From NCBI GenBank assembly GCA_903881475.1, contig CAIRTK010000003.1, positions 1 to 64,000 of the forward strand: a stretch of DNA of 64,000 nucleotides, written 5' to 3'. The position numbers and the translations under genes are program-made. Source of the stretch: an uncultured Opitutia bacterium. GTDB taxonomy: Bacteria > Verrucomicrobiota > Verrucomicrobiia > Opitutales > Opitutaceae. Under the pieces are notes generated by a model that had not been told where the DNA came from, made no database searches, and was given only the letters and a program-made list of their open reading frames with translations. Positions 22,338 through 26,809 of this stretch are shown piece after piece; positions within the stretch are counted from its first letter, which is position 1, and every line of letters begins with the position of its first letter.

Positions 22338-23183
22338 ATGGAAAACCCCGCCACGCCTCCCCCAGCCCGCCTGCACTGGTCCGCCCTAACCGACCGCGGC
22401 CGCTTCCGGGCCAACAACGAGGATGCCTTTCTCGCCCTCGCCTTCGACGGACACGAGGTGCGTTATCTGGGGAAGACCGGCCAGGCTTCGCTGGCGGGCG
22501 CTGATTATGTCTTCGCGGTGAGTGATGGCATGGGCGGCGCGAAATCCGGGGAATTCGCCAGCCGCATCGCGGTTGACCGCATTACCCGGCTCCTGCCGCG
22601 GGCTTTCCGCATGTCCGCCGCCGGCCTGGCGAGCGGATTCAACGACGTCCTGACCGAGCTGTTTTTGTCCATCCATGCCGACCTCCTGAAACTCGGCTCC
22701 TCGTATGACGAATGCTCCGGCATGGGCGCCACGCTCAGCCTGGGCTGGTTCACGCCGGAATGGATGTACTTCGCCCATCTCGGGGACAGCCGGATTTACT
22801 ATCTGCCGCACTCCGGCGGACTCACGCAGCTCACGCACGATCACAGCCATGTCGGCGCCCTGCGGCGCAGCGGCCAGCTCAACGAGCGCGAGGCCCGCAT
22901 GCATCCGCGCCGCAACGCGCTCCAGCAAGCCCTCGGCGCCGGCCACCAGTTTGTCGAGCCGCACATCGGCGCCGTCGGCCACCAGCCGGGCGACCGGTTC
23001 CTGATCTGCTCGGACGGGCTGATCGACGGACTGTGGGATCATCACCTTGAGGAACTCATCCGGGCGCCTTCATCCGAGCGCGCCGGACAATCCGCCGCCC
23101 AGCGGCTCGTCGAGGAGGCGGTGCAGGCCTCGGGCCGCGATAACACCACCGCCGTCGTGATTGAGATTCCGGCATCCGCCTGA
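22338..23183 (+). CDS. PP2C-family serine/threonine phosphatase
   Basis: Mn/Mg-dependent protein phosphatase, 281 residues, cytoplasmic. Motifs in order: LTDRGRFRANNEDAFLAL (motif 1), FAVSDGMGGAKSGEFAS (metal Asp-Gly), GMGATLSLGWF, AHLGDSRIYYL, LTQLTHDHSHV, FLICSDGLIDGLWD (metal Asp) and SGRDNTTAVVIEI (metal Asp). All metal-binding aspartates are present. It follows the mini-kinase by 3 bases and probably reverses phosphorylation made by that or another kinase. Confidence 0.93.
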   Translation: MENPATPPPARLHWSALTDRGRFRANNEDAFLALAFDGHEVRYLGKTGQASLAGADYVFAVSDGMGGAKSGEFASRIAVDRITRLLPRAFRMSAAGLASGFNDVLTELFLSIHADLLKLGSSYDECSGMGATLSLGWFTPEWMYFAHLGDSRIYYLPHSGGLTQLTHDHSHVGALRRSGQLNEREARMHPRRNALQQALGAGHQFVEPHIGAVGHQPGDRFLICSDGLIDGLWDHHLEELIRAPSSERAGQSAAQRLVEEAVQASGRDNTTAVVIEIPASA

Positions 23184-23203
23184 GCGGCACCATCCATCGC
23201 TCC

Positions 23204-23560
23204 ATGAGCCTCGTTTTTGTCTACGGCACCCTGAAACGCGGCGGCAGCAATCACACCCATCTCGCCAGGCAGGCCTTCGTCGGCGAAGCCCGCACCGCGC
23301 CGGGATTCCGGCTTTACCAGCTCGACGGCTATCCGGGCATGGTCGCCCTGGCCGGGGACCATGCTGGAGTCACCGGTGAGGTCTGGTCCGTGGATGCAGC
23401 CTGCCTCGCCCAACTCGATCTCCTCGAGGGTGTGGCCGAGGGCCTCTACCGGCGGGAACCCGTGCCACTGCTGGCGCCGTTCGCCGGCCGGAGCGTGGAA
23501 GCGTACCTGTATGCCCGCAGCGTGGCTGGCCGCAAAGACCTTGGCCCCACGTGGGCCTGA
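23204..23560 (+). CDS. Gamma-glutamylcyclotransferase-fold (AIG2-like) protein
   Basis: A 118-residue BtrG/GGCT-fold protein. It begins with the family signature VFVYGTLKRGGSNH (YGTL substrate loop), then a GYPGMV turn, and the catalytic-type Glu in LDLLEGVAEGLYRREPV. Members cleave gamma-glutamyl-amine or gamma-glutamyl peptides to release pyroglutamate; the substrate here is unknown. It lies 20 bases after the phosphatase gene and may share its transcript. Confidence 0.88.
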   Translation: MSLVFVYGTLKRGGSNHTHLARQAFVGEARTAPGFRLYQLDGYPGMVALAGDHAGVTGEVWSVDAACLAQLDLLEGVAEGLYRREPVPLLAPFAGRSVEAYLYARSVAGRKDLGPTWA

Positions 23561-23593
23561 GGCCGGCCTCGGACCTTTCCCCGGCAGGCACCC

Positions 23594-23998
23594 CTATTCC
23601 TTCAACGCCGTCCTGGGCACGCGTTTGACGGTCACGAATTTCGCCCGGAATAGTTCGTCCATCAGCTCGCGCGCCTCCGGCGGTATTCGCTTCACCAATT
23701 CGTCCAGGGCAGGCAGCGGGCCGGTTCCCTCCACTTCTTCGCCGGCTTCCGGGGCCCGGGAGACGGATACCGGGACGCCCTGCTCGCGCTGCTCGGCAAA
23801 GAAGGCCACCTCGGCCGATTCGTCGGGCCAGACATTCGCGCCATTCTCGGCCGGCGGTTCAATCCCGCCGGCCGCCGGCACCGCCTCCTCGGATGGTTCG
23901 GCCCGGGTGCCCGCGGTGTCAGCGGGACTGGCGCCCGCCACTCTGGCCGTCAGGCCGAGCGCAACCGTCAGCCGCGCTTCCAACCGGTCAATCAGTCC
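23594..23998 (-). CDS. dnaX: DnaX tau-specific C-terminal region, in the -1 frame
   Basis: An open frame of about 135 codons that begins at the dnaX stop codon and has no good start (only TTG at 23983, without a ribosome site). Read back through the dnaX A10 run it joins the zero frame after a -1 shift (…[13 protein letters not shown]…). The middle is acidic and Ala/Pro-rich, as tau linkers are, and the end [22 protein letters not shown] resembles the conserved DnaX C-terminal motif (…LEELF.A.FV.VR). I therefore read it not as a separate gene but as the tau extension; the shifted product would have about 517 residues. A true A11 genome with a miscalled homopolymer would give the same protein in one frame. 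Confidence 0.75.
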
Positions 23999-25146
23999 TT
24001 TTTTTTTTCGCCGTCGGCGCCCGGGGTCGGGGCCTCGTCCGCCAGCGCCGCGAGTTCCTTGATCAGGCTGTCGATCGCGCGCGCCCGGCTGGCATCGACA
24101 GCCTTCAGCAGCGTGACCTCGAAATTGATCTTCTCGGCCAGGCCCAGTTTCACGGCCCCTTCGCCTTCGCGCAGGCCGTCCAGCAGCCGGGTGATCTGCT
24201 CCGTCGTCAACGGCTCCCCGCCCAGCAGATCGCTGCGGCCGCCCTTCGCGATGGCGTCAAGCAAAGCCGTGCGCACCTGCGCCTGCAGGTCGGTCAGCAA
24301 CCGCACCAAGTCCCGGCCGTTCGCATCGCACTCGTCCACGATGGCCACGATCTGTGCATGGTCCCCGGCCGCCAGCGCCGCGGCCAGCGCCGCAATTTTC
24401 TCCGCCGCCACGAGGCCGTAGACATCCAGCACGTCCGGCTCGGAGATTTCGCCGCCGCAGAACGAGATCATCTGGTCGAGGATCGACTGGGCGTCACGCA
24501 TGCCGCCGTCCGCCATGCGGGCGATGCAGGCCAGGGCCGCGTCGGTGATCTTGATCTTCTCCGCCAGGGCGATCTTCTTCAGCCGCTCCACGATCAGCGC
24601 CGGCGGGATGGGCCGCAGGTCGAACCGCTGGCAGCGCGACACGATCGTCGGCAGCACCTTCTGCGGGTCGGTGGTGGCGAAGACGAACTTCACGTGCGCC
24701 GGCGGCTCCTCCAGTGTCTTCAGCAGCGCGTTGAACGCCTGCACGGAGAGCATGTGCACCTCGTCGATGATGTAGACCTTGAACTTCCCCTGCGCGGGCG
24801 CGTAGCGGACCGTGTCCCGCAGGTCGCGCACCTGGTCGACGCCGTTGTTCGAGGCGCCGTCGATCTCGATCACGTCCAGGTGCGACCCTTCGGCGATGGC
24901 CAGGCAGGCGGGATCGTTGACATCAAAATCCGCCTTCGGGCCGCCGGTGCAATTGAGCGCCTTGGCAAAGAGGCGCGCCAGCGAGGTTTTCCCGGTGCCG
25001 CGGGGGCCGACAAAGAGGTAGGCGTGCGCAATCCGGCCGCGGGTGATGGCGTTTTTCAGCGTGCGCACGACGTGATCCTGGCCCACGACGTCGTCAAACG
25101 TCTGGGACCGCCACTTGCGCGCGATGACCTGGTAACCCGTGGACAC
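23992..25146 (-). CDS. dnaX: DNA polymerase III clamp-loader subunit gamma (short DnaX product)
   Basis: ATPase of the replication clamp loader, 384 residues in this frame. Core seen: [23 protein letters not shown], Walker [54 protein letters not shown] (Walker B and SRC-type sensor region, then [12 protein letters not shown]) and the domain III helices. It stops at GEKKKD just after an A10 run, lacking tau domains IV-V. The GTG at 25146 is chosen because the longer frame to 25359 reads through a leader of quasi-repeats (ttcggatttcggatttgg) and has no homology. The SRP RNA gene lies upstream, a common dnaX neighbour. Confidence 0.93.
23999..24008 (-). other. A10 slippery run (A AAA AAG) near the dnaX stop
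   Basis: Ten consecutive A on the minus strand read GAA AAA AAA AAG GAC TGA in the zero frame. This contains A AAA AAG, the heptamer used for programmed -1 frameshifting in E. coli dnaX, and is also long enough for transcriptional slippage as in Thermus dnaX. The -1 frame stays open for about 135 further codons. Confidence 0.8.
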
Positions 25147-25339
25147 TGGGGCCAAGACCAAATCCGAAATCCGAAAGCGCAAATCAAAACTCGCGACCCG
25201 GCGGCGCGAAAACGCGCAGGAGCGGAACCTTGAAAATAAATGCCCGCTGAATCCGCCCGGTCTGCATCGCCGGGGTCCGACTGACCGGGCTCCGGACTTA
25301 TCCGGTTTCCGCCCTCCACGATCCGCAATAAAAAGAGGT

Positions 25340-25435
25340 GGCCAGGCACTCCACGGCACTGGGAGGACGTCGTTACCGTTGCTGCCTTCCGGCCCTGGCG
25401 GAGTTCACGCGCCTGCCCATGCATGGCACCTGGCC
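25340..25435 (-). ncRNA. ffs: Signal recognition particle RNA, small bacterial (4.5S) type
   Basis: On the minus strand the RNA runs from GGCCAGGTGCC to GGAGTGCCTGGCC, whose ends pair to close the rod. The apical part holds the diagnostic CCAGGGCCGGAAGGCAGCAA, matching the invariant GG-CCGGAAGG-AGCA tetraloop and Ffh-binding bulge of 4.5S RNA. About 96 bases, followed by CACCTCTTTTT as a transcript end. It directs membrane-protein targeting with Ffh. It lies between the CpxP-like gene and dnaX. Confidence 0.93.
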
Positions 25436-25479
25436 GCTGCGGACCATGCCCCGGTTCACAACCCGCGCAACACCTTATT

Positions 25480-25923
25480 TCAATGGGCCGGAGGCGATCC
25501 CTCCCCCAGCGGACGGCCGTCCTTCATTCGGCGGGCCCGCTCCTCCATGAAGCGCTTCAGCCGGTCGCGCTGCTCGGCCAGCATCTGCTCAAACTTGACC
25601 TTTTGCTCCGGGGTCAGCTGGGCGGCGATCTCGCTTTCCATGCGGTCAATGACCGCCTGCGAGCTGAGCCACGTGGTCCGGCGGATCTGGCGCAGCTCCT
25701 CGGCGCCCTGTGCGATCACGGGCTTGATCTTTTCCTGCTGTTCCGGCGTGAGCTCGAGTTTCGTCGTGAAACGCTTGATCAGCTGCGGACCAAACTGCTC
25801 GGGCGAGCCCAGGCGCGGGGGCGCGAAGTATTTCACCACCCGGAGCGTCACCAGCCCGCCCACCACCAAGCCGGCGGCAAAAATACCGATGAAGACCAGG
25901 ACGACTTTCCAAGTCTTGTCCAT
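25480..25923 (-). CDS. Membrane-anchored Spy/CpxP-like periplasmic protein
   Basis: A 147-residue protein with an N-terminal anchor helix (about 6-27, VVLVFIGIFAAGLVVGGLVTL) and a helical periplasmic part holding two LTPEQ motifs (LELTPEQQEKIKPVI and AQLTPEQKVKFEQML), the LTxxQ signature of CpxP/Spy stress proteins and metal sensors. It ends basic (RDRLKRFMEERARRMKDGR). It is third in a minus-strand operon behind an ECF sigma factor and a small TM protein (2-base gap), so it is probably a sensor or chaperone for envelope stress. Confidence 0.85.
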   Translation of the reverse strand: MDKTWKVVLVFIGIFAAGLVVGGLVTLRVVKYFAPPRLGSPEQFGPQLIKRFTTKLELTPEQQEKIKPVIAQGAEELRQIRRTTWLSSQAVIDRMESEIAAQLTPEQKVKFEQMLAEQRDRLKRFMEERARRMKDGRPLGEGSPPAH

Positions 25924-25925
25924 GC

Positions 25926-26222
25926 TCAGGAGGCGATGTCGACGATCTCCGACACCGGATCATCCACGCTCACGGATTCATTCTGGAAAGCGCTGACCAG
26001 GGTGGAATAGTTGCTCGCGAGACAGACCGCGGCCAGCAGCCCGGCCACGCTGAGGGCGCGCCAGGAGAACCGTTCAAACAGCGAGGCGACCGCCCGTTCC
26101 TGAGCAAGCGCCAGCGCGGCCACGCGCGTGGCGAAACCGTAGGGCGCGGCAGGGTCGCGGGGATCGGGGGCGCGGCGGACGGCGGCGGCGAGGCGGGGCC
26201 ATTTTTGATCGATGGGGTTCAT
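25926..26222 (-). CDS. Small single-TM protein, likely anti-sigma factor
   Basis: A 98-residue protein with a cytoplasmic N-terminal half (DQKWPRLAAAVRRAPDP, YGFATRVAALALAQERAV) and one TM helix at about 55-73 (ALSVAGLLAAVCLASNYSTLV). Its ATG overlaps the stop of the ECF sigma gene in an ATGA, a strong sign of translational coupling with that gene. No zinc-binding HxxxCxxC anti-sigma motif is visible, so the anti-sigma role is inferred from position and topology only. Confidence 0.65.
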   Translation of the reverse strand: MNPIDQKWPRLAAAVRRAPDPRDPAAPYGFATRVAALALAQERAVASLFERFSWRALSVAGLLAAVCLASNYSTLVSAFQNESVSVDDPVSEIVDIAS

Positions 26223-26809
26223 GAATGCTCCTTTTGTTCTAATTCCTTGAAGAGTTTCTGCAACTTCCGTCTGGCCCGGAAGGCGCGGACCTTGACCAGG
26301 GATTGGCTCCAGCCGGTGAGGTTGCTGATTTCAGCGATGGTCTTTTGCTCAAGGTCCAGCAGCTGGATGACCATGCGGTCGTCGGGCTTCAGCTGCGCAA
26401 GCAGCTTGTGCACCAGTTCGCGGGCGGCCAGCGCATCGCCCGCCTCCACGTCGTTTTCGTTGGTCAGCACCGCGTCCAGCACATCGGCCTCGTTTTCCGA
26501 GAGGTCGGCCCACCGGAACTCCGGCCGGCGCTTTTGGGCGCGCAGCTGGTCGATGCAGGTCGTCACCGCGATCCGTGACACCCAATGGGGAAAGGGCACG
26601 GCTCCCTGATATTGCTCGAGTCGGGTGAACATTTTTAGAAAGATATCCTGCGCAAGGTCTTCCTCGGCGACGCGGCGCGGGAGATGGGCCCGGATGATGC
26701 GGATGACAAGCGGGTAAAGGTGCTCCACCAAGTCACGCGCCGCGGATTGATCGCGCTGGCGCACGCGGTCAAGGCAGCCGACCAGGTCGAACGACTCGTC
26801 TTCAGGCAT
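26219..26809 (-). CDS. ECF-type RNA polymerase sigma factor
   Basis: A 196-residue extracytoplasmic-function sigma factor. Region 2 is seen in ARDLVEHLYPLVIRIIRAHL...EEDLAQDIFLKMFTRLEQYQG...HWVSRIAVTTCIDQLRAQKRRPE, and region 4 in VIQLLDLEQKTIAEISNLTGWSQSLVKVRAFRARRKLQKL with its helix-turn-helix. It leads an operon with a small TM protein and a CpxP-like protein, so it likely directs an envelope-stress response and its own operon. Confidence 0.93.
   Translation of the reverse strand: MPEDESFDLVGCLDRVRQRDQSAARDLVEHLYPLVIRIIRAHLPRRVAEEDLAQDIFLKMFTRLEQYQGAVPFPHWVSRIAVTTCIDQLRAQKRRPEFRWADLSENEADVLDAVLTNENDVEAGDALAARELVHKLLAQLKPDDRMVIQLLDLEQKTIAEISNLTGWSQSLVKVRAFRARRKLQKLFKELEQKEHS

Follow-up and report, generated by a model that had tools for sequence, protein, structure and literature searches.

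The dnaX locus of this uncultured Opitutaceae bacterium raises two linked questions: does the open frame that continues past a run of ten A belong to dnaX and, if it does, how would gamma and tau both be made from the one gene? An earlier note on this DNA proposed that a single dnaX gene is written in two frames, that frame 0 yields the short form and that a programmed shift at the A-run joins the two, and this proposal is now well supported. Throughout, the window denotes the whole 64,000-nucleotide stretch of DNA that was analysed.

Layout of the dnaX locus

The features of the locus are as follows.

23992..25146, minus strand: dnaX zero frame, encoding the gamma subunit (ATPase core, lid and domain III), assigned by TIGR02397 and Pfam matches.
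23999..24008, minus strand: A10 slippery run, read from the letters; all 44 family genomes classified have A9 or A10.
23998..24004, minus strand: heptamer A AAA AAG (E. coli type) in zero-frame phase within the A10 run, by direct reading.
23992..23994, minus strand: TGA that ends gamma in the zero frame, from the sequence.
23988..23990, minus strand: TGA that closes the +1 frame, the second half of TGATTGA, from the sequence.
23594..23998, minus strand: -1-frame C-terminal tail specific to tau, with its stop at 23594-23596, from dN/dS and a shared C-terminal motif.
25337..25435, minus strand: bacterial small SRP RNA gene upstream of dnaX (Rfam RF00169, 65.1 bits versus a gathering score of 40).

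Direct reading of the minus strand gives the junction as GAA AAA AAA AAG GAC TGA. The sequence agrees with the earlier description of a zero-frame DnaX that ends GEKKKD right after ten A with A AAA AAG inside; the stop lies one codon past the codon that holds the end of the run. The -1 frame, previously put at about 135 open codons, has 134 after the run, or 135 with the last AAA. The zero-frame protein is DnaX, matching NCBIfam TIGR02397 (dnaX_nterm) with 418 bits against a cut-off of 250, and matching Pfam DNA_pol3_delta2, DNAX_ATPase_lid and DNA_pol3_gamma3 above their cut-offs. An Rfam scan of positions 23000-26500 yielded nothing besides the SRP RNA.

The proposed start codon, GTG at 25146, is plausible, with TTG at 25155 as a possible alternative. 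Among 42 family genomes, the codon aligned with this GTG is GTG in 20, ATG in seven, TTG in five and another codon in ten (32 of 42 being GTG, ATG or TTG), and because the aligned codon varies in this manner the exact start is not fixed.

Both strands of the 3,211,059-base assembly that includes the window were searched for A10 or T10, and the dnaX run is the single occurrence. Together with the nine or ten A kept by all 44 family genomes classified, this goes beyond what chance would give. A9 occurs at two places elsewhere in the assembly (contig C55, L261:1033-1041, and contig C81, L262:1042-1050), and both of these runs fall within long ORFs on the minus strand whose composition suggests that they are spurious. 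In the same genome, 40 tRNA genes were found and all were typed, and two of these are tRNA-Lys genes (TTT and CTT).

Conservation of the junction in Opitutaceae

Relatives were found by using both the zero-frame protein and the tail as queries, and their junctions were classified by script. In all 44 family genomes classified, frame 0 encodes gamma and the -1 frame tau, with A10 in 38 and A9 in six. The zero-frame stop is immediate in every one of them, and the -1 tail runs for 113-206 codons. None of the 44 has one long ORF, whereas all have a similar downstream frame, which are the outcomes of two comparisons that the earlier note had proposed. Four named records from Opitutaceae (three) and Opitutae (one) have the identical layout. 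The +1 frame is closed after 3-7 codons in 43 of the 44 family genomes and after 81 codons in the other. An AAG closes the run in 38 of the 44.

The run is opened by GAA in 37 genomes, TCA in six and CAA in one, in genes with 65% G+C where GAA makes up 269 of 925 Glu codons and TCA 28 of 779 Ser codons. An A10 is found anywhere in 55 of 61 family genomes, and exactly one A10 in 26 of 61; for at least 16 of these 26 (window counted) the sole A10 is the dnaX run. One genome (G020) has its only A10 outside dnaX and an A9 run within it. A 67% complete family genome (G022) gave no dnaX match. Separately, a 23-A run at a contig end in G111 (contig C43, about bases 35-57), which produces 14 overlapping A10 matches, is probably an assembly artefact.

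An assembly or sequencing error, or a pseudogene, would mean that the true run is A11 and that dnaX is a single long ORF. Homopolymers are generally error-prone, and most of the genomes compared are draft assemblies. However, all 44 family genomes classified show the identical frame relation, including eight that are in 1-2 contigs (G014, G015, G016, G024, G030, G070, G268 and G283), and the tail is under purifying selection. An error or a pseudogene is thus exceedingly improbable. Judged from this genome comparison, the frame break is confirmed as real, and sequencing error is rejected because all 44 genomes share A9 or A10, a frame-0 gamma and a -1 tau.

The tau tail as a protein

Among 12 genomes of the genus (66 pairs), the median dN/dS, computed without stop codons, is 0.31 in the tau frame versus 1.36 and 1.81 in the other two frames. 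By this measure, the tail evolves as protein in the tau frame only.

A hidden Markov model (HMM) was made from the last 60 residues of the family tails. Of 98 run-bearing dnaX loci from outside the family, 43 carry the C-terminal motif that it describes. The matches always lie in the frame called tau (17 in frame 0, 17 in -1 and nine in +1), and the 98 loci gave none in any non-tau frame. The motif was not found in the remaining 55 loci, including all eight of family f16 and three +1 loci of family f19, so tau was called there from the long open frame alone. Compared as profiles, the family tails and tail groups from loci of the other polarities correspond with probabilities of 88-97%. The tail alone has no Pfam or NCBIfam match above cut-off and no PDB sequence match. 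The C-terminal part of E. coli tau makes contacts to the polymerase and the helicase, and the tail described here presumably has the same role.

Could the downstream frame be a separate protein, made by re-initiation after the gamma stop? The window does have a TTG (23983) in the tail frame, 9 nucleotides past the stop, and the end of the run includes a Shine-Dalgarno (SD)-like AAGGA. However, the start is not conserved: an ATG, GTG or TTG occurs within the first 25 tail codons in 26 of 44 family genomes, with ATG in two of 44, and at varying places, which upholds the previous remark that this frame has no proper start. Moreover, re-initiation would predict neither the long conserved A-run nor relatives with a single ORF in frame 0 (33 of 130 loci in the order). 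This reading is therefore very unlikely. The preferred reading is of a central replication gene that spans two frames across a bacterial family, and in a plain annotation the tau tail would go unnoticed or be given a wrong name.

Switching of the tau frame across the order

From 180 loci, ten were dropped (seven duplicates, one delta' gene, and two contig-broken halves with the junction in L038 and L040), leaving 170, of which 145 are in the order and 25 outside. The latter were partly picked for short open frames, so no phylum-wide rate can be taken from them. A dnaX match was obtained for 122 of 131 order genomes and not for the other nine. Eleven of the 122 were left out (G092, G095, G107, G118, G137, G139, G147, G149, G150, G152 and G158), which belong to families f7 and f25-f28 and are all about 0.8-1.1 Mb in size.

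A run of at least nine A is present in 134 of the 145 order loci (A9 in 32, A10 in 98, A11 in three and A13 in one). Four of these are cut by a contig end (L085, L114, L122 and L134) and were dropped. For the remaining 130, which are related sequences and not independent cases, the tau frame is -1 in 75, 0 in 33 and +1 in 22. A FastTree tree was built from 115 DnaX N-termini, with one row in three kept from the family and two rows without a state. Counting the three polarities and the lack of a run as four states, this tree requires 17 changes, where the minimum possible is three. Close relatives in other families can differ by one A, as for G091 (A10) and G105 (A11), G129 (A11) and G109 (A10), and G102 (A10) and G114 (A9), although the G091 tail is broken off by a contig end and some of these differences may be assembly errors.

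These one-A differences bear on a further alternative, phase variation at the DNA level, whereby run length would vary in the population such that some cells encode tau and others gamma alone. They speak in its favour, but the identical frame relation in 44 of 44 family genomes would be unlikely with high rates of DNA slippage. In addition, by analogy with E. coli, every cell is expected to require tau for replication. We consider phase variation highly improbable.

Both non-tau frames are closed within 13 codons in 120 of the 130 order loci. The frame that would not be entered by a directional shift closes within seven codons in 69 of 75 loci with tau in -1, 28 of 33 with tau in 0, and 18 of 22 with tau in +1. 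With positions further along these tails as the reference, closure of this frame has a mean p of 0.20 (tau in -1), 0.14 (tau in 0) and 0.11 (tau in +1). Third-frame closure is weak relative to the null in some families, with a mean p of 0.33 in f4, 0.40 in f11 and 0.53 in f26. The effect is moderate overall, weak in f4 and f11, and absent in f26. Late third-frame closure occurs in G024 (81 codons), G155 (76 codons) and G123 (120 codons).

Codon choice at the junction provides another view of the third frame. Within the family, the Ile codon that forms the +1-frame TGA (TGATTGA) is ATT in 30 of 34 cases versus 191 of 1122 (17%) of Ile codons in the same genes, a count weakened by the shared ancestry of the sequences. 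The remaining four are ATC, and occur exactly where the next codon does not start with GA, so no stop is possible there.

These patterns are consistent with a dnaX that is indifferent to frame in this order, which we regard as probable. Specifically, slippage would mix the frames so fully that selection would keep nothing but the run and two closed off-frames, and the DNA could hold tau in any of the frames 0, -1 and +1, with a change of a single A flipping the frame. This reading is firmest in families f8, f20 and f22, in which the tau motif was found in the +1 frame (nine of the 22 loci with tau in +1). The whole order can be seen as a natural experiment, in which the run and the off-frame stops are retained and the frame flips.

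The 11 of 145 order loci that have no run of nine A are mostly from the small genomes of families f7 and f25-f28. The run has been lost at L056, L057, L149, L150, L152, L154, L155 and L158 (small-genome families f6, f7, f25, f27 and f28), and in several run-less small-genome loci DnaX is only about 350-460 residues long. The gamma/tau scheme may have been lost along with genome reduction in these families. Family f26, at about 1 Mb, retains A9.

Seven loci of the same class but outside the order (L075-L077, L080 and L177-L179; families f29 and f33-f35) have a single long DnaX frame of 561-733 residues, with no run of at least seven A in the stretch searched. Seven loci from other phyla (L208, L211, L215, L218, L228, L230 and L244, including metagenome-assembled genomes (MAGs) titled Ignavibacteriae, Bacteroidetes, Pyrinomonadaceae and Desulfobacteraceae) have A8-A10 at DnaX residues 359-409 and encode tau in frame 0; each off-frame meets a stop within 12 codons, and the loci are candidates for a Thermus-like arrangement. 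In two deltaproteobacterial MAGs (L206 and L209), no more than 33-38 codons separate an A10 from the end of DnaX. The off-frames there close after 2-7 codons, and a slip would trim just the last tau residues. Finally, the dnaX of a MAG titled Proteobacteria bacterium (L185) is 58% identical to that of the window and ranks among the Verrucomicrobia matches, and its label may be wrong.

Polymerase slippage versus ribosomal frameshifting

Slippage by RNA polymerase, of the type known from Thermus, is the best explanation for gamma and tau production, and we consider it likely. According to this mechanism, the polymerase would slip on A10 to yield mRNAs with differing numbers of A. Those with 10 A (10+3n) would be read in frame 0 to the stop just past the run and give gamma. 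Those with 9 A (9+3n) would enter the +1 frame, reach a stop four codons later and give a near-identical gamma. Those with 11 or 8 A (11+3n) would be read on in the -1 frame, producing tau complete with the C-terminal tail. We infer the polymerase as the slipping agent, and the product ratio likewise.

Several observations argue for slippage. The run of at least nine A in 134 of 145 loci is longer than A AAA AAG requires. The early closure of both non-tau frames in 120 of 130 loci and the ATT bias at the +1-frame stop speak for it as well, as do the lack of SD enrichment and of a consensus RNA structure. The mixed direction of tau (-1, 0 or +1) also points this way because Antonov et al. (PMC3711429) take mixed direction as a sign of transcriptional realignment. 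Likewise, the two tRNA-Lys genes (TTT and CTT) support slippage because a 2016 review (PMC5009743) links this state in Thermus to polymerase slippage.

The main alternative is programmed -1 ribosomal frameshifting of the E. coli type at A AAA AAG or A AAA AAA, in which the mRNA would have exactly ten A and some ribosomes would step back one base to make tau. The heptamer is in phase at 23998-24004, and the direction is constantly -1 in 44 of 44 family genomes. RNA after the run tends to be a little more stable than elsewhere in the gene: for the 60-nucleotide windows there, the median stability rank is 0.23, and ten of 44 are among the top 5%. There is also a precedent in Chlorobium phaeobacteroides, which is given in PMC5009743 as having a reversed dnaX with E. 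coli-like stimulators. However, SD-like words are not enriched upstream (ten of 44, or 23%, versus a background of 17%), and the window is without one. The RNAalifold consensus of the junction is empty with both 44 and 33 sequences, although the ten windows in the top 5% for stability leave room for a stem. Furthermore, there are two tRNA-Lys genes rather than one, third-frame stops appear to be selected for, as judged from the ATT bias, and relatives with tau in +1 and 0 are left unexplained by a mechanism with one direction. We therefore view ribosomal frameshifting as unlikely, though not negligible.

In the window A AAA AAG is present in phase, and 38 of 44 family genomes have AAG at the end of the run, so ribosomes may slip in addition to the polymerase, and the two processes may act together. 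Of the earlier claim of a -1 shift, the two-frame junction stands, and polymerase slippage (which that note had also named) is likelier than a directional -1 ribosomal shift. The flipping of the frame makes the old question of polymerase slippage versus ribosomal frameshifting directly testable among relatives.

Comparison with known dnaX systems

The layout of the window gene is already known because it was published by Antonov et al. in 2013. That paper (PMC3711429) describes 17 dnaX genes, from 12 genera, whose frame shifts by -1 at the DNA level; nine of the genes have ten A's. It presents the layout as a novel organisation that needs recoding to make tau. It favours transcriptional realignment for the A10 dnaX cases, and 'Opitutus' is absent from its main text. 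The 2016 review (PMC5009743) repeats the two-ORF dnaX and states that one nucleotide can reverse the roles. As in the two-ORF genes of PMC3711429, frame-0 gamma in the window ends just past the A-run and tau lies in -1, and the window gene is without essential difference from them. Therefore, the layout described earlier as the reverse of E. coli holds as an observation but not as something unusual, given the 17 such genes in PMC3711429.

The relatives in the order depart from this pattern, since the dnaX cluster in PMC3711429 is -1 only, whereas tau is also found in +1 here (22 of 130). The literature searched by title and abstract, a scope that leaves out most subscription journals, yielded no paper on recoding of an Opitutaceae dnaX, on tau in the +1 frame of dnaX, or on all three polarities within one lineage. 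Within that literature, the +1 dnaX type and the three-way switching would be undescribed.

Escherichia coli dnaX, with its -1 ribosomal frameshifting at A AAA AAG, is the same gene with the same products and has the same heptamer that lies within the run here. However, the frame roles are swapped, and the Opitutaceae locus differs in having no SD enrichment, no consensus stem and a second tRNA-Lys. Thermus thermophilus dnaX, which uses transcriptional slippage at A9, shares with the window gene a long run of A and nearby stops that close both non-tau frames, and both genomes have two tRNA-Lys (PMC5009743 and PMC1088944 for Thermus). In Thermus, tau is the zero-frame product, and this polarity, with tau in frame 0, is found at 33 of 130 order loci. 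In the window, the zero-frame product is gamma. Hence, the window dnaX would work like that of Thermus, but is laid out differently.
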